A stretch of DNA of 64,000 nt from assembly GCA_945890485.1 (NCBI GenBank), contig CAMDCN010000003.1, positions 434,001-498,000 on the forward strand, given 5' to 3'. Of the stretch, positions 2,254-15,736 are shown piece after piece. Numbering within the stretch: the stretch's first letter is position 1; each line of letters starts with the position of its first letter. Below the pieces are notes generated by a model. It had not been told where the DNA came from and searched no databases. It saw only the letters and a program-made list of their open reading frames with translations. The position numbers and the translations under genes were made by a program. The stretch comes from Candidatus Sulfopaludibacter sp. SbA3 (GTDB lineage Bacteria > Acidobacteriota > Terriglobia > Bryobacterales > Bryobacteraceae).

Positions 2254-2430
2254 TTCTTGCGCTCCTTGCCTCTACGAAATGCAAGCCGCGTGCCAAAGCG
2301 AGATTCCTATACGAATCAACTGCTTGCGAAATGCCCGTCCTCCTTGCTGTCGAGGAATCAACCAGATTCCCGCCACCAGCGTTTGAAACTCGGACATGCC
2401 GGGGGATCGCCGCGTTATCCTATTCGTTGT

Positions 2431-4653
2431 TTGAAGAGGCGCTTCCATCCATCCTGCATCGTATTGACGGGATGCCTCGCGATCACGCTATCCTCCTGCT
2501 CCCGGCCCGCTGAGCCCACGGCCGTTGCCGCCAACGAGTACGTCGACGCCCGCACCTGTGCCGAGTGCCACGCCGGCATCGCCCGGACCTACGCCAAAAC
2601 CGGCATGGCCAATGCCTTCTCCGTTCCCAACGCGGAGAACATCCCAAATCCGCAGCCCTATTTCCATCGGGCCTCGGGCACCTGGTATCAGAACGTAGCG
2701 AAGGGCGGCGAATGGGTGCAACGCTGGTGGCAGCTCGGCGCCAAAGGCCAGCCGGTCAGCACGGGCGAATCCAAAATCGACTACGTCATGGGCTCCGGCC
2801 ACCTCGCGCGAACCTATCTGCATCGCACCGCCCAAGGCACCCTGATCGAACTGCCCCTCGCCTGGTACTCGGAGAACGGAGGCGCCTGGGCCCTCAATCC
2901 CGGCTTCGACCGCCCGGATCCCCCCGTCGGCCGAAACATCGGCTACGACTGCATGTTCTGCCACAACTCCTATCCCACCATCCCTTCCGGCCACGAGGAC
3001 GCGGGAGCCCAGCCTGTCTTCACCGGGGCGTTGCCGCAGGGAATCGACTGCCAACGCTGCCATGGCCCGGGCGGCAATCACGTCCGTACCGTAAAAGGAA
3101 CCGGCGCCAAACTCGCCGACATCCGCAGCTCCATCGTCAATCCGTCTCGGCTATCCGAAGACCGCGCCATGGACGTCTGCACCCAATGCCACCTCGAAAC
3201 GACCGTGCGGCTGCTTCCCAACGCCATTCGCCGCTATGACCGCGGCCCGTTCTCCTTCCGTACCGGGGAGCCGCTCAGCGCGTTTCAGCTCGCCTTCGAC
3301 CACGCGCCCGGCTCGGGCCAGGAAGACAAGTTCGAAATCGTCAGCTCCGTCTACCGCCTCCGCCAGTCCAAGTGCTTTCTCGAAAGCCCGGGCAAACTCA
3401 CTTGCACGACATGCCACAATCCGCACGATATCAAGCGCGGTCAAGCCGGTCTCGACGGCTACAACCAATCTTGCATCCGCTGCCACGAACCAGCCAAGAT
3501 CGCCGCGAAGGACCATGCGTCAAAGAGCAATTGCGTCGGCTGCCATATGCCGAAACGCCGCGCCGAGGACGTCGTCCACGCCGTCGTGACCGATCACAAA
3601 ATCCAACGCCGGCCAGCGGCCAACCTCGTGGCGGAGTTCCCCGAACGCCACGGTCCCCAGTGGGAGTACAGCGGCGAAGTTGTACCGTATGGCGACCACG
3701 ACGACCTCTATTCAGCCGTCGCGCAAGTCACGCACCAGCGCAATCTCGAACGCGGAATTCCCCGGCTCCAGGCCGAAATTGCCAAGCAGAAGCAGGAGCG
3801 GCCGGAGTTCTACATGGAGCTGGGCAACGCCTTGCAGCATGCGCGACGTTCTGAGGAGTCGGCCGCCGCGTATCGCATCGCACTCGAAAAGCGGCCGGGC
3901 TCCGCACTGCTCTGGGCCCGATTGGCGATGCCCCTGCGCGCGATGGGCAAGACGCAGGAGCCTCTTGACGCGATGCTGAAGTCCGTTCAGGCGGACCCGA
4001 ACCAGCCCGAGAACTGGCACAATCTCGGCCTGCTGCAGTCCAGCCTCGGCGATAAGAAATCGGCGATCGAATCGTTCCGCAAATCCATCGCTCTCGATCC
4101 CGAATCGGCCGACTGCCACAATAGTCTCGGCGCGGTCCTAGCCGAGACGGGACAGTCGCGAGAGGCTGAAGCAGAGTTCCGCGCCGCGCTCAGCCTCCGG
4201 CCCGCGTTCCCGGCCACGCACGCCCATCTCGCGTATATGATGGCGAATCGCGGGGACTTTGAACAGGCCATCTGGCACTATGAGCGAGCCGGCGACGGCG
4301 CAGTGAACCAGTTCAGCTACGGCATCACGCTGGCGCGCATGAACCGCCTGCCGGACGCGCGAATCCATCTGCAAAAGTCCCTGAACGCCGATCCGCATCA
4401 GCCCATCGCGCATGAAGTCCTCGGCCGCCTGCTCGAAGCCGCCGGCAAGATTCCGGACGCGGCATCTCACTATCGGGAAGCCATCCGCCTGCGCCCCGGC
4501 TTCGGCCAAGCCCACGTCAACCTCGGAGCGCTTTTGGCCCGTCAAGGAAACCGCGCCGCTGCCGCTGCGGAGTTCCGCCTCGCGCAGTCTGATCCGGACC
4601 CCCAGATCCGTCAGGTAGCCGCTGCGGGCCTCGCCGCCCTCGGCGTTAATTAA
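2431..4653 (+). CDS. Heptaheme cytochrome c lipoprotein with C-terminal TPR array
   Basis: The start is taken at the TTG at 2431 because MKRRFHPSC...LAITLSSC is a clean lipoprotein signal with lipobox LSSC (Cys 23); the open frame from 2257 adds an implausible 58-residue leader. The 740-aa product has seven CxxCH heme sites at about residues 43, 174, 207, 250, 325, 348 and 368, resembling the cytochrome c554/doubled-CxxCH group, followed from about residue 460 by seven or more TPR units (for example AIESFRKSIALDPES). The hemes imply periplasmic or surface electron transfer, and the TPRs a docking platform. The gene stands alone. Family recognition is firm; the electron partners are unknown. 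Confidence 0.85.
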   Translation: MKRRFHPSCIVLTGCLAITLSSCSRPAEPTAVAANEYVDARTCAECHAGIARTYAKTGMANAFSVPNAENIPNPQPYFHRASGTWYQNVAKGGEWVQRWWQLGAKGQPVSTGESKIDYVMGSGHLARTYLHRTAQGTLIELPLAWYSENGGAWALNPGFDRPDPPVGRNIGYDCMFCHNSYPTIPSGHEDAGAQPVFTGALPQGIDCQRCHGPGGNHVRTVKGTGAKLADIRSSIVNPSRLSEDRAMDVCTQCHLETTVRLLPNAIRRYDRGPFSFRTGEPLSAFQLAFDHAPGSGQEDKFEIVSSVYRLRQSKCFLESPGKLTCTTCHNPHDIKRGQAGLDGYNQSCIRCHEPAKIAAKDHASKSNCVGCHMPKRRAEDVVHAVVTDHKIQRRPAANLVAEFPERHGPQWEYSGEVVPYGDHDDLYSAVAQVTHQRNLERGIPRLQAEIAKQKQERPEFYMELGNALQHARRSEESAAAYRIALEKRPGSALLWARLAMPLRAMGKTQEPLDAMLKSVQADPNQPENWHNLGLLQSSLGDKKSAIESFRKSIALDPESADCHNSLGAVLAETGQSREAEAEFRAALSLRPAFPATHAHLAYMMANRGDFEQAIWHYERAGDGAVNQFSYGITLARMNRLPDARIHLQKSLNADPHQPIAHEVLGRLLEAAGKIPDAASHYREAIRLRPGFGQAHVNLGALLARQGNRAAAAAEFRLAQSDPDPQIRQVAAAGLAALGVN

Positions 4654-6876: not shown

Positions 6877-8190
6877 ATGCCACAATCAACTTCGATGAAA
6901 GCCGTTCACCTGATCACCCTTGATCCTGCCCACTTCCACGCCGCCCTCGTCCAAAAAGAGATGTACGCCGGCGTTTCCCCCGTAGTCAAAGTCTATGCCC
7001 CGCTCGGCCTCGACCTCACCGAGCACCTCACGCGCGTCGCGCGTTTCAACCAGCGGGCCGAAAACCCCACCACTTGGGAACTCGATATCCACGCCGGCCC
7101 CAACGCCCTCGACCGCATGCTCCGCGAGCAAGCCCCCGGCAACGTCGTCGTCCTCTCCGGACGCAATCGTTCCAAAATCGAGCGCATCGAACGCTCCGTC
7201 GCCCAAGGTTTCCACGTCCTCGCCGACAAACCCTGGATCCTCCGCTCCGCCGATCTCCCTCGCCTCGAAGCCTCGCTGAACGCCGCCGACGAGCAAGGCG
7301 TCATCGCCTACGACATCATGACCGAGCGTTACGAAGTTACCTCCATGCTCCACCAGGAACTCGTCAACGCACCCGAAGTATTCGGCGCTCTCCTCCCCGG
7401 CGACCCCACCAAACCCGCCATCTACATGGACAGCATGCACCGCCTGCTCAAGTCCGTCGCGGGCGTCCCCATGCTCCGCCCCCTCGAATTCTTCGACATT
7501 GAAGAGCAGGGCGAAGCCCTCTCCGACGTCGGCACCCACCTCGTTGACCTCGCCCAATGGATCGCCTTCCCGGGCCATGCCATCGACCACCGCACCGACA
7601 TCGAACTCCTCGACGCGCGCCGCTGGCCCACCACTCTTAACCCCGAACAGTGGAGCCGCGTCACTGGTGGCGCCCCCGTCCCCGCCTCGCTCGCTGGCTA
7701 CCTCCGCGGCGGCAACTTCGACTACTACGGCAACAACTTCGTCTCGTACACGCTCCGCGGCGTCCACGTGCAAATGGACGTCCGTTGGGACCTCGAAGGA
7801 GTCAGCGATACCCACATGGCCACCTTCCGGGGTACCAAGTCGAGCATCGACGTCCGCCAGGGCGCTGCCGAAAATTACCGTCCCGAAGTCTACGTCGTGC
7901 CCAACTCGCCTGAACTCCACGACGAAGTCCTCGCCGCGCTCCAGGCAAAGCTCGCCGAAATTCAGCCCAACTTCGATGGAGTTGGCGTCGAGGATCGCGG
8001 CCACGAACTCCTGCTGACCATCCCGGACCACCACCGCGTCGGCCACGAAGCCCACTTCGCCGAAGTCACCCGCCAGTTCTTCGCCTATCTCGAAGACCCG
8101 AAATTACTGCCTGCCTGGGAAAAGCCCAACATGCTGGCCAAGTACTATGTCTGCACCAAAGGTGTCGAGATGGCGGTGGCCAAGCCCTAA
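6877..8190 (+). CDS. Gfo/Idh/MocA family oxidoreductase with C-terminal PF16490-like domain
   Basis: 437 aa. The N-terminus KAVHLITLDPAHFHAALVQKEMY is a Rossmann-like start, followed by VVVLSGRNRSKIERIERSVAQGFHVLADKPWI, where ADKP replaces the EKP cofactor/catalytic motif of the family. GEALSDVGTHLVDLAQWIAF corresponds to the GxxxDxGxHxxD substrate-side helix. The long C-terminal part fits the putative oxidoreductase C-terminal domain found in Acidobacteria and Planctomycetes. It is likely an NAD(P)-dependent sugar or sugar-acid dehydrogenase; the substrate is unknown. The ATG at 6877 or the in-frame ATG at 6895 could start. It is a single gene followed by a strong hairpin. Confidence 0.8.
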   Translation: MPQSTSMKAVHLITLDPAHFHAALVQKEMYAGVSPVVKVYAPLGLDLTEHLTRVARFNQRAENPTTWELDIHAGPNALDRMLREQAPGNVVVLSGRNRSKIERIERSVAQGFHVLADKPWILRSADLPRLEASLNAADEQGVIAYDIMTERYEVTSMLHQELVNAPEVFGALLPGDPTKPAIYMDSMHRLLKSVAGVPMLRPLEFFDIEEQGEALSDVGTHLVDLAQWIAFPGHAIDHRTDIELLDARRWPTTLNPEQWSRVTGGAPVPASLAGYLRGGNFDYYGNNFVSYTLRGVHVQMDVRWDLEGVSDTHMATFRGTKSSIDVRQGAAENYRPEVYVVPNSPELHDEVLAALQAKLAEIQPNFDGVGVEDRGHELLLTIPDHHRVGHEAHFAEVTRQFFAYLEDPKLLPAWEKPNMLAKYYVCTKGVEMAVAKP

Positions 8191-8214
8191 CCGCACCAGC
8201 CGGAAGGACCCATT

Positions 8215-8250
8215 GGCCCATAGGCGCCGCCACCGCGGTGCCTATGGGCC
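8215..8250. terminator. Strong 16-bp hairpin after the oxidoreductase
   Basis: GGCCCATAGGC and GCCTATGGGCC are exact reverse complements, and the inner CCGC/GCGG extends the stem to about 16 pairs (one G-U) around a CACC loop. It starts 24 nt after the stop at 8190. There is no U-tract, so it is a likely transcript end or boundary element rather than a textbook intrinsic terminator. It also marks the left edge of the RiPP cluster. Confidence 0.6.
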
Positions 8251-8404
8251 ATGATCGTTTCAGGGACCACGCAAGCCCCTACCGCCGTCTTGTGAGAATA
8301 TTCCGTGTCCTTACACACTCTGTCCAGAGATTGGATCACTCCGGCCGTAGCTTGGCCCGCGAGGCCACCTTGAGGCAAGACTTCAGTCTCGGGGAAACTC
8401 CAGA

Positions 8405-10312
8405 ATGAACGTTGCGATGGCCCGGCATGGCAGTCCTGTTGCCCATAGGGATGTCCAGGCCGAATCCTTTTCCGGTTGGGTCAATTTACGCGACGGCGGC
8501 GACCCAGCCGTCATCCGCGACCAAACCCATGCAACACGGAAAACCGGTGATCCCCTTCTGCTAAGATGCCCGGAAGGTTGGGTGGCATTTTACGGCCGCC
8601 TCGATGCCCGCGCGTGCTTGGCGCGAGCCCTGGGTGTCCAAAACGAACCCGCCACCCCCGACGTGGAACTTGTCCGCTTAGCCCTCGACAAATGGCAGGA
8701 AAACGCGCCGCGGCACCTGCTCGGCGATTTCGCGATCGCGGCCTGGAGCGAAAGGGAAAAGAGCTTGCTGCTTGCCGCGGATGTCTCCGGCCTGAACACC
8801 GTCTATTCATGGCGCAACGGAGACCGGATCTACTTCGCCACTTCCCTGCGCGACCTCCTGCGGGAATCCCCCGTGCCGCTTGACCTCAACGAACAATACG
8901 TCGCCGATTGCATCGCGATGAACCTCGAGGACAACGACGCCACGCCCTATCAACAGATTCGAAAGGTAGCTGCGGGAACGTGCGTGGTTGCCTCAGCCGG
9001 GCGTGATAGGGTCGTAAAGTATCACCGCTACGATATCGAACACCGCATCCGTTTGGCCAACGACAACGAGTATGTTGAGGCCGCCTGGGAACTTCTACAG
9101 CGGGCCGTTCGCGACCGGACGAGGGGCCTGAACACCGTTCACATTATGGGCAGCAGCGGCTTGGACAGCGCTGCGGTTGCCGCTGCCACGGCGGCCGTCC
9201 ACTCAAAGCCTTTTGAATACATCACGGCAATCCCGGATCTGGCGCTGCCCACCATCCCGTTGCATCCCACCCAGAGGAACGAGCAGCACTTGGTGGAGGT
9301 AATGGCCCATGCGTTTCCGGCGATGCGCGCCACCTTCGTGCCTCCGGCCGCGGACCAGAACTGGGATCCCGGCTGGCCGGAACACGTTCAAGCGAATTAC
9401 GCTCCGCACCGTACCGCAGTACACGTAGCGTGGTTTCACAACGCTTGCGGGACCGCCGCCCAGCTCGGGGCCAACACCTTCTTGGGCGGTGCGGGCGGCA
9501 ATATGACGCTAACGTGGGATGGTTGGCGGCGGCTTCCCGCCCTGTTCTTGAGTGGGCACCGCGGCGAAGTGATCCTGGAACTGCTCAAAGGGTGCGGCGG
9601 CAGCCCGCGTCGCTTCGCGGGGCTTACCTGGCGAGAACTCATTCGTCCGCTCCTCGGCCCTCGCTACGACTATCGCTCGCTCGAGAAATATGCCGGGTTG
9701 CGCCGGCAAGCAGTGGACGAGTTCGACCTGTTGAGCCGAATGCGGGCGACCGGCAACGATCCAAGCTTCGTCCGTTCGCTCGATAACCGCGTTTGGCGCC
9801 TGCAGACGCTACTCCGCGGCCGGGCGCGCCGAACCGAGCTGACGAACATGCACCGCTCACTTTACGGACTGACGCAGTCGACGCCGTTGCTGGATCAACG
9901 CCTCGTCGAGTTTTGCCTGGCGATTCCGGAAGATCAGTACCTGCGCAACGGAAACTATCGTTGGCTGGCGCGACGGCTTCTGCTCGCCGCCGGAGTACCC
10001 GCGGCGGTAGCGGAAAACCGGCGCTTTGGCTACCAGCATCCCGAGTGGTTCGCCCACCTCACCGAATCGCGTCCCGCCATGCGGGACCAGATCGCCCGGC
10101 TGCGCAGCAGTCCGTTGGCAAGCCGCTTGATCGATACGGACAGACTGGATCGCATGCTGGATTCGTGGCCCAAGAACCCCGTCGCGGCGGAGCGGCTCCG
10201 CAGCGAACTGGGGAGCGTACTGGCCGGGAGCGTGGCCGTCGGCGCCTTCGTCCAATGGGCAGAAAATGGATTACGCGCTAGAAGTGCCGTCGCCGGACAG
10301 ATACGGGACTGA
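8405..10312 (+). CDS. Asparagine-synthase-like RiPP macrocyclase (lasso cyclase-like)
   Basis: 635 aa, the length of lasso peptide C proteins. Residues 1-220 form a glutaminase-like domain without the N-terminal catalytic Cys (GWVAFYGRLDAR, HLLGDFAIAAW), so it cannot use glutamine. The synthetase domain begins with the PP-loop VHIMGSSGLDSAAVAAA (residues 245-261; SSGLDS replaces the usual SGGLDS). Such enzymes adenylate an Asp/Glu side chain and close a macrolactam with the peptide N-terminus. It is the only plus-strand gene of the cluster, convergent with the six-gene operon that carries the precursor, PqqD-like, kinase and sulfotransferase genes. Lasso cyclase is the best inference; ordinary asparagine synthesis is unlikely. 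Confidence 0.8.
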   Translation: MNVAMARHGSPVAHRDVQAESFSGWVNLRDGGDPAVIRDQTHATRKTGDPLLLRCPEGWVAFYGRLDARACLARALGVQNEPATPDVELVRLALDKWQENAPRHLLGDFAIAAWSEREKSLLLAADVSGLNTVYSWRNGDRIYFATSLRDLLRESPVPLDLNEQYVADCIAMNLEDNDATPYQQIRKVAAGTCVVASAGRDRVVKYHRYDIEHRIRLANDNEYVEAAWELLQRAVRDRTRGLNTVHIMGSSGLDSAAVAAATAAVHSKPFEYITAIPDLALPTIPLHPTQRNEQHLVEVMAHAFPAMRATFVPPAADQNWDPGWPEHVQANYAPHRTAVHVAWFHNACGTAAQLGANTFLGGAGGNMTLTWDGWRRLPALFLSGHRGEVILELLKGCGGSPRRFAGLTWRELIRPLLGPRYDYRSLEKYAGLRRQAVDEFDLLSRMRATGNDPSFVRSLDNRVWRLQTLLRGRARRTELTNMHRSLYGLTQSTPLLDQRLVEFCLAIPEDQYLRNGNYRWLARRLLLAAGVPAAVAENRRFGYQHPEWFAHLTESRPAMRDQIARLRSSPLASRLIDTDRLDRMLDSWPKNPVAAERLRSELGSVLAGSVAVGAFVQWAENGLRARSAVAGQIRD

Positions 10313-10413
10313 CCTCCACCGGCCGTCGATCCCTTCCCTCATGGGTCTCGCCTGCGCCCCTGTGGCGCCGGCTCCCTTGGGGCCGCAGGGGCGATTTCTC
10401 AATCGGCTCGCTC

Positions 10414-11262
10414 TCAAGCGAGATACTGAAATCGCTCCATCATCTTCTGATGATCCGCTGCGATTCGTTCCTGCTGCGACGGCGATAGGGAACCCCGCCA
10501 ATCTCCAGACACACCGCGCCGGAAAAACGGTGCGGTTGACTCCGGACGCCGCTCCCGGAAACCGGCCGCGGCCTCCTGTGCGCGGAGTACCTCAAACTCG
10601 GTTGCCTTCACGGCTGCTTGAATCTGCTCTTCGTTCGCTGCGATGCCCAATAGCCCCGCAGCGGCCCGCAGCCCGGCCTGCGGATCCGTTTTCAGGTCTT
10701 CGTAGCGTAAAACCAAGATGGGCAATTCGCGCTGCTCCATCCACGACGACACATGGCCAGACCACGTGCCCAATGGTTGGGGCAACTGCCGCTTACAAGA
10801 ATGCTGAGCTCGGGCCAGTTCCATTGCAGGATCCATCATCATTCGAATAATTTCGTCCACTGGCAAACCGCGGTGATGCGCGTAAGAGACAGCGACGTCC
10901 CGGGGATCGCGAACCAGGTATACCGCGCCTCGCGTCACTGTTCCGCTGAAGGCAGGTTGGCCCGAGGCTGTCCGCCAATAACGATCGTGGACCTTCCGCA
11001 ACAGTAGCGGCGAACTGGAGCAGGCCAGGATCTCAGCATGCAAAGCAGGACGGGCATCCGCAATCTCCTGGCAAGTCAGCTCGCTCGACTCCACCCCAAG
11101 AAACTCGTCCATCTCCGGAAACGAGGCTACGGAGCAGTCGTGAGCGATCTGATTAATGTCGATCTCGGCGCCGCCTGCCAGAAGGCTGGCCAGCATCATG
11201 CGCATCCACGTGTTTCCCGACTTCGGATAGGAAACAAGCCAGCCGAAGCGAGCGTCCCCCAT
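10414..11262 (-). CDS. Sulfotransferase (PAPS-dependent), RiPP tailoring
   Basis: 282 aa. The 5'-phosphosulfate loop is WLVSYPKSGNTWMR (residues 8-21), the 3'-phosphate motif is VYLVRDPRDVAVSYAHH near residues 117-131, and the late motif FFRRGVSGDWRG near residue 253 matches the GxxGDWK-type PAPS contact. It is expected to transfer sulfate from PAPS to a hydroxyl. The ATG directly follows the TAG of the HPr-kinase-like gene (no gap), so the two are co-translated. A hydroxyl-rich core peptide in the same operon is the obvious candidate substrate, by inference. Confidence 0.85.
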   Translation of the reverse strand: MGDARFGWLVSYPKSGNTWMRMMLASLLAGGAEIDINQIAHDCSVASFPEMDEFLGVESSELTCQEIADARPALHAEILACSSSPLLLRKVHDRYWRTASGQPAFSGTVTRGAVYLVRDPRDVAVSYAHHRGLPVDEIIRMMMDPAMELARAQHSCKRQLPQPLGTWSGHVSSWMEQRELPILVLRYEDLKTDPQAGLRAAAGLLGIAANEEQIQAAVKATEFEVLRAQEAAAGFRERRPESTAPFFRRGVSGDWRGSLSPSQQERIAADHQKMMERFQYLA

Positions 11263-12174
11263 CTAGCCCTCGTGAACGGCTTGCCGCACCAGCTCGACCA
11301 GGCGGGGGAGATCCGGCGGACCATCCGGACGAGTGAGCCGGTAGACGCGAATCGCCGCGCCCAGCTCCGTCAATTGCTTGAAAATCTCCACTTGGCGTCC
11401 CATTGTGCGCCCCAAACGGGCGCGGTAGACCAGTTCGTCGATCGGCATCACGGATTGCGGTCCCGTCAATCGTTCCAGCTTCGGGGCGCTGGCCTGCACG
11501 TCCAGTGACAACCGAATCAGCGCGCGCAGTGGCAGTGAACCTGTCTCCTTGTTGACGTCCGTCAGTACCCGTTTTGGATGATGACTCCTCGCCGTCATGA
11601 GCGTCTCCGGATCTCTGCCCAGAGCCTTGGCCATATCGGGCCACAGGCGAAGCCTCGATGGGCCGGGGGCCACCGTTGGGCATCCATTGGGGGCGAACTG
11701 GATCCGGCACACATCGTCGGCAATCAGCGGGAACCCTTGCAGGGCAAGTGCTGAGGCAAAAGTCGACTTGCCAACACCGGACGGCCCGGCGAAGGCCACC
11801 GCCGAACCATCAATCGAAACCGCGCTCGCATGCAGCGGCAACGCATGCCGCTGGTGCAAGACCACCCCCGCCACCAGGCTCGTGAAATGGGTCTCCGTCT
11901 CAATCGAACTCTGCGACGAGTCCGTATCCAGCACGATCTCGCTCCCTCCCACGATTCGGAAACGCAGGCGATCGCTGACTTTCGCGATCGCCTCGCCATC
12001 CTCGCCGATTTCCAGAAAGGGACTGGACCACACGGCAGGGTTGAGACGATCGGAAACCGGCCCCAGGCGCAAACGAATATCGGGATCTCCGCATCCGCCG
12101 CCCGGAGGCAGCATGGGGAAGGCGACCTCGCTGGATAGCTTGTAGCCGTAGTACTGATACTGATATTCGTTCAC
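11263..12174 (-). CDS. HPr kinase-like P-loop protein (RiPP/lasso kinase type)
   Basis: 303 aa from the GTG at 12174, 10 nt after the PqqD-like stop; the frame is open farther upstream, but that part overlaps the PqqD-like gene and looks non-coding. The N-terminus NEYQYQYYGYKLSSEVAFP and the Walker A segment LHASAVSIDG...AFAGPSGVGKST (GPSGVGKST at residues 130-138) are typical of the HPrK-like proteins of lasso and other RiPP clusters, some of which phosphorylate the C-terminal Ser of the peptide. The precursor here does end in Ser. Kinase activity is inferred from family and context. Confidence 0.8.
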   Translation of the reverse strand: MNEYQYQYYGYKLSSEVAFPMLPPGGGCGDPDIRLRLGPVSDRLNPAVWSSPFLEIGEDGEAIAKVSDRLRFRIVGGSEIVLDTDSSQSSIETETHFTSLVAGVVLHQRHALPLHASAVSIDGSAVAFAGPSGVGKSTFASALALQGFPLIADDVCRIQFAPNGCPTVAPGPSRLRLWPDMAKALGRDPETLMTARSHHPKRVLTDVNKETGSLPLRALIRLSLDVQASAPKLERLTGPQSVMPIDELVYRARLGRTMGRQVEIFKQLTELGAAIRVYRLTRPDGPPDLPRLVELVRQAVHEG

Positions 12175-12184
12175 GGCGTTCTCG

Positions 12185-12502
12185 TCAGGCAGCGGCAGCA
12201 GCCGACGCCTCTTCTCGCGCGGTAAGCATGCCAAAATCGCGGAGTTCGCCCAATAGCTCAACAACATCACGAGCGATGACCTCGGGATCACCCTGGTACT
12301 GGCGGCTAACTTGGGCACAAACCGCTTCAATCGTCTGGGCCGTTGCCAGGCACTTCCAAATTCTGGAGGCAACAGGGTCCATGCCCAAGTAGATCCCCTG
12401 CCGGATCGACAGGGCAAGCACTTCCCCGGCAACCTCCGTCGTGATCTGCTCAGGATCCCACTGCACGACTGTGCCAGGGGAGAGTGTAGTAGCGTTTTTC
12501 AT
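12185..12502 (-). CDS. PqqD-like RiPP recognition element protein (lasso B1-like)
   Basis: 105 aa with the PqqD pattern: an N-terminal beta part (GTVVQWDPEQITTEVAGEVLALSIRQGIYLGMDPVASRIWKCL) followed by helices (TIEAVCAQVSRQYQGDPEVIARDVVELLGELRDFGML). These winged-helix proteins bind the precursor leader and deliver it to modifying enzymes. The ATG overlaps the oxygenase stop by 4 bp and the product precedes the HPr-kinase-like gene. In lasso clusters this is the stand-alone B1; the usual partner protease B2 is not recognisable nearby. Confidence 0.9.
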   Translation of the reverse strand: MKNATTLSPGTVVQWDPEQITTEVAGEVLALSIRQGIYLGMDPVASRIWKCLATAQTIEAVCAQVSRQYQGDPEVIARDVVELLGELRDFGMLTAREEASAAAAA

Positions 12503-13155
12503 TTTGGTCCTTCCTTGCGATGAATCCAGATGTTTACGGCGAACCGGCTGTCAGCGAAATCGTTGCCCGGACAATGCACCTCGCTCACCGAATGAGGGGC
12601 AATTGATGGGAAAGCCACCAGTTGGTTATGATGCGGTTCGATATCCTGAACCCCCGAATCCGCTTTGTTCCGCCCGCCCAGCCCGTGCATGCGGAGAGCG
12701 CCTCCGGCAAAGGCCTTCGGCTCGCGCAGCAGGTAGTAGACCAGGGTCAGAACCCGGCTGCTCGCTTGGCGATACGAACCCACGAACGTATCGATATGGC
12801 GGTCAAAGTGCGCGCCGTGGCCGTGAGCCGCCAATTCGATCTCAAAACGCCCCGCCACAAAGACGGGAACTCTCAGTGCCTGCTGCAGCTCCGCCTGAGC
12901 GGCGCGTGCCGCCTCGCGAATCACGGGGGCGAACTCACCGAGGTCATGCAGCACAAGGGTTTTCCGCACCGCCGGATCAACCTTCGGCTCACCTTCGTAG
13001 TGCACCCGTCCGTCTGTAAACCGGTCCTGGTTCGCAATCGCGTACTGGAGCAGCCCGTCCGCTGCGTCGCGGGGCAACCAGTTGGGAGCCACATGGCACG
13101 GAAGAAACACGGGCATTCTGGTGGACTGGCTCGGCGCCGTCGCGGCTCCGGTCAT
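12499..13155 (-). CDS. 2OG-Fe(II) oxygenase, RiPP tailoring
   Basis: 218 aa. The iron ligands are visible as H116-x-D118 (AHFDRHID) and H188 (AFPSIAPHSVSEV), with R204 (DSRFAVNIWIH) as the likely 2-oxoglutarate carboxylate contact, in a prolyl-4-hydroxylase-like double-stranded beta-helix (YYLLREPKAFAGGALRMHG). The enzyme should hydroxylate an amino-acid side chain. It overlaps the unknown gene upstream and the PqqD-like gene downstream by 4 bp each, so it belongs to the RiPP operon. The precursor has only two prolines in its leader and one in the predicted core, making Pro or another core residue a testable target. Confidence 0.85.
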   Translation of the reverse strand: MTGAATAPSQSTRMPVFLPCHVAPNWLPRDAADGLLQYAIANQDRFTDGRVHYEGEPKVDPAVRKTLVLHDLGEFAPVIREAARAAQAELQQALRVPVFVAGRFEIELAAHGHGAHFDRHIDTFVGSYRQASSRVLTLVYYLLREPKAFAGGALRMHGLGGRNKADSGVQDIEPHHNQLVAFPSIAPHSVSEVHCPGNDFADSRFAVNIWIHRKEGPK

Positions 13156-13928
13156 TGATTGGCCTCCCTCGCAGTGGTGGGTGCTTCCGGTGAGTATTGG
13201 ACCGTTGGAGGATACAGCGGCCGCCCGCCCGTAAAATCAAGATAAGTCTGATCTCCCAACCGGTACGCCGTCTGAATCCAATACAGCAGCGTCTGCTGCC
13301 GTTGCAGTCTGGATTCCGGCCTTTCCAGGTGGTCGTCGACAAGAGGCAGAAGTTGCGCCTCGATTTGTCTCGTTTCGTCACTGAATATGTACTGGTCGGA
13401 TGGGCCGCAATGAATCTCGAACTCTGTGCAGCCCCGCTTGATGAAGACCGGGACCTCGGGCCCTAGTTTCGGATGAGCGTTCACCGCCTTCCGTACGTGG
13501 GCATAAGCCTCGCGGGCGGCGGGCAATCCATCCAGGAAAAAGTACGCGCCATAGATACCTGAGGTTGCATGCGCCGGGGCGTCGAGACCGCACTTATAGG
13601 TGTAAGGAAGCTGTTCGCCGGTCTCGTGAACGGCCATCAGTTGCCGAAGCGTGCGTGGGACCACCTTCACCTTGAAACACAATTCACAGCCGGCGGGGAC
13701 ACGTTGCCGCTGATAAACATGCTCAAACATCACCATCTGGAACTTACACGGACGGTTCCGGTCGCGAATCACTTTGATCCACGCCGACGGCCGCCGTCCC
13801 GGCGGCACGCTCCAGCGCCTTTCCTGCCCAATTGAAATCAGTTGACCGGCCGCCTCTGCCACCGCCCAGCTAGCACCTACCGTCCGCCCAGCGACGGTTT
13901 GGTCGAAGACTTCGGATTCTGAAACCAT
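13152..13928 (-). CDS. Unrecognised RiPP-operon protein, cysteine-bearing
   Basis: 258 aa from the ATG at 13928 (MVSESEVFDQTV); a GTG at 13997 would overlap the precursor. I do not recognise the family. Visible features are a soluble composition, CKFQMVMFEHVY, CELCFKVKVV, TYKCGLDAPAHATSGIYGAYFFLDG, RGCTEFEIHCGPSDQYIF and a C-terminal TLLYWIQTAYRLGDQTYLDF helix. The Cys and His content could bind a metal. It sits directly after the precursor (31-nt gap) and overlaps the oxygenase start by 4 bp, the place where lasso operons often hold a processing or tailoring enzyme. It is a candidate for the missing leader-processing step, by context only. Confidence 0.75.
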   Translation of the reverse strand: MVSESEVFDQTVAGRTVGASWAVAEAAGQLISIGQERRWSVPPGRRPSAWIKVIRDRNRPCKFQMVMFEHVYQRQRVPAGCELCFKVKVVPRTLRQLMAVHETGEQLPYTYKCGLDAPAHATSGIYGAYFFLDGLPAAREAYAHVRKAVNAHPKLGPEVPVFIKRGCTEFEIHCGPSDQYIFSDETRQIEAQLLPLVDDHLERPESRLQRQQTLLYWIQTAYRLGDQTYLDFTGGRPLYPPTVQYSPEAPTTAREANQ

Positions 13929-13959
13929 AAGTGGATCACAGCCCTGAGCCGTTCTCTGT

Positions 13960-14121
13960 TTAGGAAGTGGACCCATTCCCATCAGAGACCGGGCCACTGG
14001 TCGTCAGAGTTCCACTTTCCACGTCGAGCAGCGTGATGGTCGGCTTACTCCAAGCTGGAAGCTCCTCTGCCGAAGTCAGTTCCTTTCGATCGCAATTGGG
14101 TTGTTGATAAAAGTCGGTCAT
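13960..14121 (-). CDS. RiPP (lasso-like) precursor peptide
   Basis: 53 aa from the ATG at 14121, preceded by a strong AAGGAGAA site. The leader MTDFYQQPNCDRKELTSAEE leads to AWSKPTITLLDVESGTL, in which WSKPTI matches the YxxPxL recognition motif of lasso leaders, and Thr38 sits where the conserved penultimate leader Thr is expected. Cutting after Leu39 leaves a 14-residue core, TTSGPVSDGNGSTS, with Asp at core position 8, so an 8-membered Thr1-Asp8 macrolactam is possible. The core lacks aromatic plugs and is dominated by Ser/Thr/Gly, unusual for a lasso; it ends in Ser, the known target residue of lasso kinases. The gene is first in the operon. Confidence 0.7.
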   Translation of the reverse strand: MTDFYQQPNCDRKELTSAEELPAWSKPTITLLDVESGTLTTSGPVSDGNGSTS

Positions 14122-14579
14122 GCAAATTCTCCTTCTTTGGCCGCTTAACGCCAGGACTGGAACCTCGCAGGTTCTCAAGAAACGGAACCGAGGTTCGTCA
14201 GGGTCACGGACGACGTCTGCTAGGCAGGCAACGCCGGTTTGCTCCACGCGACCTTACCGCCGTGGAGAGTCATTCATCTTAGGCGCGAAGGCCTTCTGGT
14301 TGTACTTCGTCTGTTGGATCTTTCGAGTGCCGCCAAGGCGACCCAACCGGTCTGGTCCATCTGCGGCTTCGAAATCCGGAGCGCCACCGCTCGAACTCGA
14401 ACTTACGCTCGGATGACTGGCTCGATCATAACATGAGAGTTCGTGAGCGGAAATATCTAATTTGTGGCAATACGCCTATTTTTATTTGACTTACAGTTGT
14501 CTCACCGTGCGGCGCCGCTGCATTACAATTGTTATCCTAAGCGCCACGTGCGATGTATCTGCGCGTCCTCTTCTCGTTG
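14122..14579. other. Leader region of the RiPP operon with no intact gene
   Basis: 458 bases without a convincing intact gene. On the minus strand a TATGAT (14425-14430) with TTTCCG 17 nt upstream could be the operon promoter. From 14220 to 14273 lies a 17-codon frame ending AWSKPALPA, related to the precursor leader motif. The stretch 14440-14580 is clearly AT-richer than its surroundings, and nothing else was identified there. Confidence 0.4.
14220..14273 (-). pseudogene. Possible decayed precursor paralogue (WSKP mini-frame)
   Basis: The frame reads MTLHGGKVAWSKPALPA then TAG; past the stop it continues QTSSVTLTNLGSVS before another stop. AWSKP is shared with the intact precursor 100 bp downstream but with different synonymous codons (GCG TGG AGC AAA CCG against GCT TGG AGT AAG CCG), which argues for homology at protein level rather than a recent copy. 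There is no good ribosome site. It may be coincidence. Confidence 0.3.
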
Positions 14580-14935
14580 TTACGTCAAAGCTAACGTCGA
14601 ATTTACATTGAGAGTACACGCAATATGCCGGTTGAACTCCTCCAGTTCCTCTGCAGGAATCCAATACTCCTGATGGATCCGCGCGCCGGCCGTCTGCACC
14701 GGATATCGATCCAGAAAAGCCTTCGCAACCTGGAGGCGCACAACGCAGCCGGCGCCACCGTCTTTCGCATTCCAATCGCGGGCGATTTGGGTCGCGTACC
14801 CCTCGTTCAGAACCGGGTAGAAGATCGGCTGTTCCGGCCGGCGTGGAGGGAATCCCCGCCACGAGCCCTGGCGGATCAGATCGAGCTCAGCTTGGCCCGT
14901 TGGGCGGAAAGGGGAACGGTGGTGATGTCACGCAT
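14580..14935 (-). pseudogene. Frameshifted gene of an uncharacterised conserved family
   Basis: The intended start is the ATG at 14935 (MRDITTVPL), but that frame stops after 19 codons. A one-base shift within the C/T run near 14900-14910 joins it to a long frame beginning FRPTGQAELDLIRQGSWRGFPP, followed by QPIFYPVLNEGYATQIARDW, FLDRYPVQTAGARIHQEYW and IPAEELEEFNRHI, ending at TAA 14580. These blocks are typical of a widespread small hypothetical protein whose members run PIFYPVLNEEYATQIARDWNTKD. The frame has no start codon of its own, so the gene is broken. The ATG lies inside the nucleotidyltransferase remnant upstream, a former translational coupling. Confidence 0.65.
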
Positions 14936-15195
14936 GGAGTCGGATTCTCACAAGCAAGGTCGTTCAGCGCCTCGCGGTAGATCGGGGCGTCGCACAGTAA
15001 TGCGCCTTTTTCCGGACCACTCACCTTGCGGTCCACCAAGTTGAACGTCACCAGATTGGCCACCACCGTCCCCGTCCGCATCAGGTAGATTCCCGTCAAA
15101 AGGACACGATAGGGATCCAGCAGCGGCTTCACTCGCGGCGGGTCTCCCTTTTCAAGCAGTCCCAGATAGTGATGGCTGTGATGCCGCGCCGAAGA
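14887..15195 (-). pseudogene. C-terminal remnant of a COG3541-type nucleotidyltransferase
   Basis: Reading through the minus strand gives HHSHHYLGLLEKGDPPRV, then KPLLDPYRVLLTGIYLMRTGTVVANL, DRKVSGPEKGALL and YREALNDL. This is the C-terminal half of the predicted nucleotidyltransferases of COG3541 (family pattern HHYxGL ... PYRVLLTGIHLMRTG ... RKxAGxEKG). The catalytic N-terminal nucleotidyltransferase motif is absent: similarity stops near 15195, where a plus-strand truncated gene begins. A segment after VTFN also looks deleted. It is therefore a degraded, 5'-truncated gene. Confidence 0.6.
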
Positions 15196-15736
15196 GGACC
15201 TGCCACCGTTCTTCTTTCTGCTCTCGACGGACGACCGGACCGCCCATATTCACTCCTCCCAAAGTCTGTTGCGCCAATTCAAACCCAGATCCGAATTCGA
15301 ACTCAGCCTGATCCGGCGCATGGCCGTCGCCCTGTTCCAGCACGATCGGCTCACCACCTTGGGCGCCGGAGCGATGCTGCGCGAAATCGACACGATAGTG
15401 CGCGAATTTCCAGCGCTAGGCCTGTCTGAGCGTTCGGTTCAGGGCCACAAACGGGCGGTCCATGAAAAGCAGCTTCAACAGTACGTCGCCCGGGGCCAGC
15501 GGCAGCACGAGACCGCATTCAACGGATTCTTCAAGACGTTGCTCCTCGTGCAAGAGAACTTTCCGATGGAACCCGCCGAGCAAATCGACATCAGCGCCGA
15601 TGCGACTCAGATCGACGAAGAGTTGCCAAGTCCGGCCCTCGTCGAAAAGATCCTCACGCTGGCCGAACGAGCGAAGAACGAACCCAGCCCTAAACTCCCG
15701 GAATACTTCCTTACCGTGTTGACAAAAAAGAACTGA
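15182..15736 (+). pseudogene. 5'-truncated conserved hypothetical gene
   Basis: The frame is open from 15182 with no ATG/GTG before a TTG at 15269. It encodes SLLRQFKPRSEFELSLIRRMAVALFQHDRL, then AMLREIDTIVREFPALGL, a basic QYVARGQRQHETAFNGFFKTLL helix, and a C-terminal EKILTLAERAKNEPSPKLPEYF. This resembles acidobacterial hypothetical proteins that normally begin with a KHGL...LLPxED block, missing here. The 5' end abuts the broken nucleotidyltransferase on the other strand, so the two were probably cut by one rearrangement. A shortened product from the TTG cannot be excluded. Confidence 0.5.

Follow-up and report, generated by a model that had tools for sequence, protein, structure and literature searches.

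What does the locus at positions 8405-14121 of a 64,000-nucleotide stretch of DNA from Candidatus Sulfopaludibacter sp. SbA3 (contig CAMDCN010000003.1; the whole stretch is called the window here) produce, and how could its product mature without a leader peptidase? The locus holds seven intact genes, one on the plus strand and six on the minus strand, encoding a cyclase, a sulfotransferase (ST), an HprK-like kinase, a PqqD-family protein (B1), a 2-oxoglutarate (2OG) oxygenase, a protein of no known family (UNK), and a peptide precursor, and all were found where a first-pass annotation of this DNA had placed them. From gene content and sequence motifs we think it probable that they encode a lasso-type pathway for a ribosomally synthesized and post-translationally modified peptide (RiPP) of the phosphorylated, paeninodin- or Bsf-like sort. 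The best reading is that this cluster is a variant of the phosphorylated lasso systems not described before, unusual mainly for the absence of the enzyme that cuts the leader (B2). What is new here is that no B2 was found at any of six loci of the window-type cyclase clade and that, in all eight loci found with this type of ST, its gene lies directly after an HprK-like gene.

The first-pass annotation had proposed a lasso-like RiPP cluster and had named a grouping of the asparagine-synthase homolog with free asparagine synthetases (AsnB) as grounds for giving this up. Judged by its sequence, the window cyclase is of the lasso type. It lacks Cys2 (the protein starts MNVAM), has the ATP-binding loop SSGLDS, and among NCBIfam models scores best with NF033535 (lasso cyclase; 173.7 bits, under the cut-off of 525), with 92.6 bits for asparagine synthase. 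An unrooted tree of 29 proteins has a 100/100 branch with a Mesorhizobium AsnB and four AsnB-type proteins from the genome of the window on one side and the remaining 24 rows on the other, and on this separation together with the missing Cys2 we reject an AsnB identity. The window cyclase forms a clade (99/96) with those of L008 (a stretch of the same-genus genome G149, contig LNFE01000202.1) and L009 (like L044, a stretch of the same-genus genome G004) and with two proteins of genome G209, from which L029 and L032 come; the cyclase of Tistrella mobilis plasmid pTM1 joins at 99/97. This clade lies inside a 17-row group (92/91, not starred) with a cyclase that adjoins an annotated paeninodin-family gene, and five lasso-type cyclases with B2 attach closer to the AsnB branch. 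The Tistrella and Thalassobaculum rows are on long branches, so their positions in the tree are less sure. No cyclase was found in phage records.

Pfam scores lie above cut-off for Asn_synthase (73.1 bits, cut-off 21), Sulfotransfer_1 (105.5, 22), PqqD (56.6, 23.4), and 2OG-FeII_Oxy_3 (67.6, 27), and the PqqD match, alongside the position of the cyclase among lasso-type cyclases, supports the proposed lasso-like assignment. The top NCBIfam model for B1 is lasso_PqqD_Bac (3.5e-10, 39.9 bits, under the cut-off of 80). Hpr_kinase_C matches the P-loop part of the kinase at 28.2 bits, under its cut-off of 33.3. In the kinase, LHAS, GPSGVGKS, and ADD are intact and supply the His, Lys, Asp, and Asp residues that have been reported in lasso kinases. 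A Priestia kinase encoded next to a paeninodin-family gene shares 26% identity with it (E 3e-22). An HprK-like kinase with this residue set and a precursor ending in Ser are together the marks of the paeninodin type, and both are found here.

The 53-residue precursor has no Pfam or NCBIfam match at E 1 and no PHROGs match at E 0.1, and its layout is that of a lasso precursor, with a [Y/W]xxP leader motif, Thr(-2), and an acidic residue within core positions 7-9. Its leader ends in W(-16)SKP...GTL and is followed by the core TTSGPVSDGNGSTS. In PbaA, which is paeninodin-like, the Trp is found at -15 (PMC13381572), one residue off the Trp(-16) of the window. Anchoring on Thr(-2) within the cyclase clade gives the cores TTSGPVADGNGSTS in L008, TTTGFSADFVGSSS in L009, STDGGSSEASETHS in L032, and GISNVSDDGFISTHS in Tistrella pTM1 (L050). 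Position 8 is D, D, D, E, and D in the window, L008, L009, L032, and Tistrella, respectively, and the final residue is Ser in all five. Counting distinct clade precursors (the window, L009, L032, and Tistrella pTM1), position 8 is acidic in 4/4, with a probability of about 1.5e-4 by shuffling each core. Over a wider set of 11 anchored cores, 10 have an acid at positions 7-9, a number reached by 0 of 50,000 shuffles in a test that is not blind, because the core starts were chosen by eye under the Thr(-2) rule. A C-terminal Ser is likewise present in 10 of the 11, the exception being Azospirillum (Gly). The set comprises the four distinct clade cores, three from a second cluster of the same genome, and those of Tistrella pTM3, G097, Azospirillum, and Thalassobaculum; L008 was left out as a near-copy of the window, as were L033, L058, L059, and L061, where the Thr(-2) reading is not clear and some pattern matches are weak, and L052 is a reference, printed outside the count. 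The lasso-type loci on the Tistrella mobilis plasmids pTM3 (L076, 8653-11882) and pTM1 (L050, 6509-10923) have ST-like genes and precursors that are unannotated in their records, both with an acid at core position 8.

Several points weigh against a lasso product. The core starts of these peptides were placed by eye through the Thr(-2) rule, and for L038 another start can be read. The one miss among the 11, from Thalassobaculum, belongs to a similar locus and has no Asp or Glu anywhere in the core. Lasso peptides usually begin with Gly, Ala, Ser, or Cys, and Thr is an unusual first residue of the ring; the clade has Thr1 in the window, L008, and L009, Ser1 in L032, and Gly1 in Tistrella. The cyclase, B1, and the kinase all score under the cut-offs of the NCBIfam lasso or HprK-related models. 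No transporter was recognized by Pfam among ten flanking proteins scanned, three of which had no Pfam match of any kind, and a local profile of B2 found none in the cluster (window 1-30000).

The whole cluster recurs in the same-genus genome G149, where L008 has all seven genes in identical order at the same genomic site, flanked as in the window by TPR, DUF4256, oxidoreductase, SDR, and ferritin-like genes. Ratios of nonsynonymous to synonymous substitution rates (dN/dS) between the two copies are low for every gene (Table 1); all seven genes are real and under purifying selection. In G004 the cyclase (dN/dS 0.13 against the window) and the precursor are kept, and the cluster is being lost, since PqqD is shortened, the 2OG oxygenase reads as remnants in the alignment, and the kinase, ST, and UNK were not found at the locus (L009/L044). 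Among the 19 same-genus genomes listed, three have a cyclase match at E 1e-25 and 16 do not, several of the latter being incomplete. The co-occurrence in relatives that the lasso-like proposal called for thus holds: one genome of the same genus has the whole set, a second has a decayed copy, and further loci have parts of it. Among the loci searched, the complete seven-gene set without B2 was found nowhere beyond the window and L008. The interval upstream of the precursor is about 2.4 kb longer in L008 than in the window, and pieces of it look glycosyltransferase-like by eye; seven local profiles gave no match at E 1 in this extra DNA (15.7-20.0 kb).

How, then, would the leader be removed? 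The local profiles covered 32 stretches, including the first 30 kb of the window. They found B2 at 0/6 window-clade loci (the window, L008, L044, L029 with L032, L078, and L050) versus 19/23 other cyclase loci (L031, L033-L037, L039-L043, L049, L051, L052, L058, L060-L062, and L075), a contrast that is suggestive only, since three of the clade loci are closely related and the cyclase gene is cut by the ends of the G209 contigs. The remaining loci without B2 are L038, L059, L076, and L077, the B2 of the last lying 15-19 kb off, outside the stretch. Two of the G209 contigs, C203 and C55, have 151 identical end bases in common, consistent with a single locus of precursor, cyclase, ST, kinase, and B1. 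A tblastn search of the Tistrella plasmids with an Azospirillum B2 query found none, which is no evidence of absence because the query, matching three records, missed the annotated B2 genes of Priestia and Halopiger. The title of the paper on pseudomycoidin is said to go on to name the absence of a leader peptidase. As cited in PMC9266682, the title reports in vivo synthesis of this peptide when the leader is absent. By comparison, a B2 is listed for each of three soil clusters attributed to Acidobacteria (PMC9064862).

The likeliest of the alternatives is a narrower form of the preferred reading, to which we give nearly an even chance: the lasso system has lost its own B2, uses that of a second cluster in trans, and is otherwise ordinary. 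A genome-wide search for PF13471 (B2) gave exactly one match, on contig C6, beside a B1. This second lasso-type cluster comes in two parts: a nucleotidyltransferase-like gene lies with B1 and B2 at about 50.5-52.2 kb, and 15-19 kb from these, at about 67-71 kb, are an HprK-like kinase, an ST, and a lasso-type cyclase with three precursors (14-residue cores with Ser last). Each of the three same-genus genomes that have a cyclase of the window type keeps this B1-B2-nucleotidyltransferase set. The leaders of C6 differ, however (W.[PS]PEL.KLPV.ET), and pathways for lasso peptides and for linear polyphosphorylated peptides (LPPs) that share a host are reported to tell their leaders apart (PMC13381572). 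The same B2-less layout also occurs on Tistrella pTM1, where the plasmid was searched and the chromosome was not. In the C6 region (G000:C6, about 50-71 kb; L006 6480-8207, L077 5848-10168), the neighboring genes resemble, by eye, those for polysaccharide export. Another HprK-B1-B2 set is present in G149 (L063, G149:C191, 8396-11648; L048), and the frame after it resembles an ABC transporter by eye.

It is quite unlikely that no lasso is made at all, the cyclase being an amidotransferase-like ligase and the peptide staying linear with phosphate and sulfate as its main marks, as in LPPs. The missing leader peptidase and the related Thalassobaculum precursor without Asp or Glu would fit this, and LPPs show that ring-free systems of kinase and RiPP recognition element (RRE) exist (PMC13381572). 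The core genes of LPPs do not include a cyclase, however, whereas the window cyclase gene is intact and evolves under purifying selection, and position 8 of the core stays acidic through exchange of D and E.

UNK might also stand in for B2, either as an unrecognized leader peptidase or as a metal- or Cys-containing protein for leader removal. The first-pass annotation had called it a protein of unknown kind, which agrees with its lack of a family in Pfam and NCBIfam (no match at E 1) and in PHROGs (E 0.1). UNK is present in both intact B2-less clusters (the window and L008), and five cysteines (C61, C81, C84, C113, and C167) are kept in three homologs. Homologs were found in 2/200 family genomes, 1/396 phylum genomes, and 1 of 72,556 plasmid records; a three-row profile found 3/399 class genomes, the third at E 9.3e-4 with an internal stop and excluded. 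The homolog in the lasso-type locus of Thalassobaculum, which matches 76% of the query at 33.5% identity (2e-30), adjoins a B1. That locus has a B2 as well, however, UNK is missing from the B2-less G209 and Tistrella stretches (phmmer, E 1e-4), and an AlphaFold2 model from two sequences, at pLDDT 34, was too poor to use as a fold; we regard this role as very unlikely. In a comparison of the UNK profile with PDB sequences, a designed protein (E 0.0038) and another (0.86) were both weak and were taken as chance.

That the cluster is decaying and non-functional, as the G004 copy and the 16 genomes without a cyclase match might suggest, is extremely improbable given that the window and L008 keep all seven genes intact with dN/dS of 0.10-0.22.

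The tailoring genes are the other distinctive part of the locus. The ST has complete SYPKSGNTW, YLVRDPRD, and RRGVSGDW motifs and the 2OG oxygenase complete HFD...PHSVSE...RFAVN motifs, which we take to be the functional signatures of these families. In 8/8 loci with this type of ST (the window, L008, L029, L033, L038, L049, L062, and L077) its gene directly follows that of the HprK-like kinase, overlapping it or at most 24 bases away, a count that says nothing on STs elsewhere because only the surroundings of cyclases or B2 genes were searched. The local ST profile was built from seven of the eight STs that it then found; Pfam Sulfotransfer_1 itself was checked for the window, L029, and L077. 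When kinases paired with an ST are labeled on a 26-row kinase tree, the label needs four changes (4/500 shuffles were as low, and the starred branches force at least two); on this tree the paired kinases cluster, but the pairing does not go back to one origin.

A 2OG oxygenase (PF13640, above cut-off) adjoins the kinase and B1 on G209 contig C196; a PF13759 oxygenase lies in the same gene run as the ST-like gene of Tistrella pTM1, which is under the Pfam cut-off; and Thalassobaculum has a sub-threshold PF13640 match. The first-pass annotation could not match the combination of kinase, ST, and oxygenase to a described compound. It is indeed unusual but not unique, since the set recurs on the Thalassobaculum plasmid, partly by sub-threshold matches. 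In Azospirillum sp. TSH100, the protein at L051 4762-5799 is annotated as an aspartyl/asparaginyl beta-hydroxylase, a name that is probably wrong: it has no Pfam match at E 0.01 and has 36% identity over 71% of the Tistrella ST-like protein.

For the preferred reading, a phosphorylated lasso-type pathway, the following is inferred throughout, from the chemistry and the sites modified to the sequence of events and the threading. B1 would bind the WSKP motif of the leader, and the HprK-like kinase would phosphorylate a Ser of the linear precursor, either Ser14, following paeninodin, or Ser3, following BsfA. Ser14 is favored, because Ser is last in all five clade precursors and position 3 is S, S, T, D, and S. 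The C-terminal Ser is also the reported site of most known lasso kinases (PMC9266682). The ST would sulfate a nearby Ser or Thr hydroxyl, as the core has no Tyr, and a hydroxyl may be added to the core by the 2OG oxygenase, with Asp8, Pro5, Val6, and Asn10 as candidate sites. By analogy with paeninodin, Bsf, and canucin, tailoring is expected on the linear precursor, before leader removal and cyclization; help by B1 in tailoring is reported for Bsf and canucin (PMC9266682, PMC8498205, PMC10368454). The leader would be cut after Leu(-1) by a protease encoded away from the cluster, which may be the lone B2 encoded in this genome, acting in trans, or some other enzyme, and the cyclase would then link Thr1 to Asp8 to give an eight-residue ring with a six-residue tail.

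A bolder extension, rather unlikely as a whole, is a cross-phylum B2-free lasso-type clade (Acidobacteriota and Alphaproteobacteria) in which several members use a fixed kinase-ST module and a 2OG oxygenase to make lasso peptides of about 14 residues with phosphate and sulfate, sulfation possibly depending on phosphorylation and the leader being removed by another enzyme (UNK in some). The HprK-then-ST pair together with the predicted ring acceptor and leader makes a sulfate modification directly testable. If the missing B2 does mean another route of leader removal, the minimum lasso gene set would change.

Table 1. Features of the cluster, with positions in the window; dN/dS compares the window with L008.
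Feature	Position	Strand	Evidence
Lasso-type macrolactam cyclase (C protein), 635 aa	8405..10312	+	Pfam, NCBIfam, tree, dN/dS 0.15
ST, dependent on 3'-phosphoadenosine 5'-phosphosulfate (PAPS), 282 aa	10414..11262	-	Sulfotransfer_1 4e-30, motifs, dN/dS 0.10
HprK-like kinase, GTG start	11263..12174	-	Pfam/NCBIfam, residue motifs, Priestia similarity, dN/dS 0.14
PqqD-family B1 protein (precursor recognition element), 105 aa	12185..12502	-	Pfam, NCBIfam, dN/dS 0.11
Fe(II)/2OG oxygenase, 218 aa	12499..13155	-	2OG-FeII_Oxy_3 2e-18, motifs, dN/dS 0.19
UNK, 258 aa, no known family	13152..13928	-	Pfam/NCBIfam/PHROGs nulls, homologs, dN/dS 0.15
Precursor gene, 53 aa	13960-14121	-	Layout, dN/dS 0.22
Precursor leader, 39 aa, end W(-16)SKPTITLLDVESG-T(-2)-L(-1)	14005..14121	-	Same layout in L008, L009, L032, L050
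Predicted core, 14 aa, TTSGPVSDGNGSTS, ring Thr1-Asp8, tail GNGSTS with Ser last	13963..14004	-	T(-2) anchoring by eye

The minus-strand genes run, in order of transcription, from the precursor through UNK, the 2OG oxygenase, B1, and the kinase to the ST, and from UNK onward neighboring genes overlap, abut, or lie no more than about 10 bases apart, with four-base overlaps between UNK and the oxygenase (13152-13155) and between the oxygenase and B1 (12499-12502) and the kinase and ST abutting at 11262/11263. The single tight operon described earlier is therefore true of six of the seven genes, since the cyclase gene is on the plus strand and convergent with this run. Rfam gave zero matches at 8000-15500, and scans for promoters and terminators (3 and 6 sites versus 1.6 and 5.4 expected from shuffles) were uninformative. 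A search of PDB sequences with query P0001 gave no match at E 0.01. Upstream of the precursor, 14490-15132 on the minus strand holds short broken frames that look by eye like the remains of another gene, and the frame at 14887-15132 has no Pfam match. Farther off, 2257-4653 on the plus strand encodes a protein matching multihaem cytochrome c and TPR.

How does the cluster compare with known systems? No characterized sulfated lasso peptide appears in the accessible text of PMC8498205, PMC4289311, or PMC8776678, and a 2026 review of interlocked peptides (PMC13352647) has "sulfat-" once in its accessible text, in a reference on a sulfatase. In open-licence PMC titles, abstract starts, and passages we found no description of this gene set, of a sulfated lasso peptide, or of a B2-less clade. 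A kinase with an ST in lasso clusters is not new, because HPr kinase and sulfotransferase genes were noted in such clusters in 2014 (PMC4289311) and by Zhu 2016, as cited in PMC8498205. These have the same two tailoring families as the window, their role being called unclear there; unlike in the window, neither a 2OG oxygenase nor a missing B2 is mentioned in the accessible parts of these two sources.

LPPs resemble the window in their [Y/W]xxP leader, discrete RRE, HprK-like kinase, and lack of need for B2, but have a signal-peptidase-like LppS and core genes without a cyclase (PMC13381572). The window cluster differs from them in its cyclase, present and conserved, and no LppS was seen among the ten flanking proteins scanned, a scan in which the LppS family was not searched as such. 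In the Bsf system of Bradymonas (PMC10368454), a kinase with B1 acts on the linear precursor and modifies Ser3, a residue also present in the window core; it differs in having Ile(-2), a B2, and a C-terminal Asp, and the accessible text mentions no ST or oxygenase. Canucin A is, like the predicted window product, a 14-residue lasso peptide, with an Fe/2OG hydroxylase (CanE) aided by B1 (PMC9266682, PMC8498205), but it comes from Streptomyces and is hydroxylated at its terminal Asp, and neither a kinase nor an ST is mentioned in what these sources give. The Thalassobaculum sp. OXR-137 plasmid NZ_CP139716.1 has, as in the window, a cyclase, HprK-like kinase, ST, 2OG-like protein (sub-threshold), UNK, and B1; unlike the window it also has a B2 and second HprK-like, B1, and ST-like genes, with a core lacking the acid. 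Paeninodin-type systems (Zhu 2016, via PMC9266682 and PMC8498205) have in common with the window the cyclase, B1, an HprK-like kinase with H-K-D-D, a WxxP leader, and a C-terminal Ser. As described there, those systems have a B2 and some add a nucleotidyltransferase and transporter, whereas the window cluster has no B2 and adds an ST, a 2OG oxygenase, and UNK.

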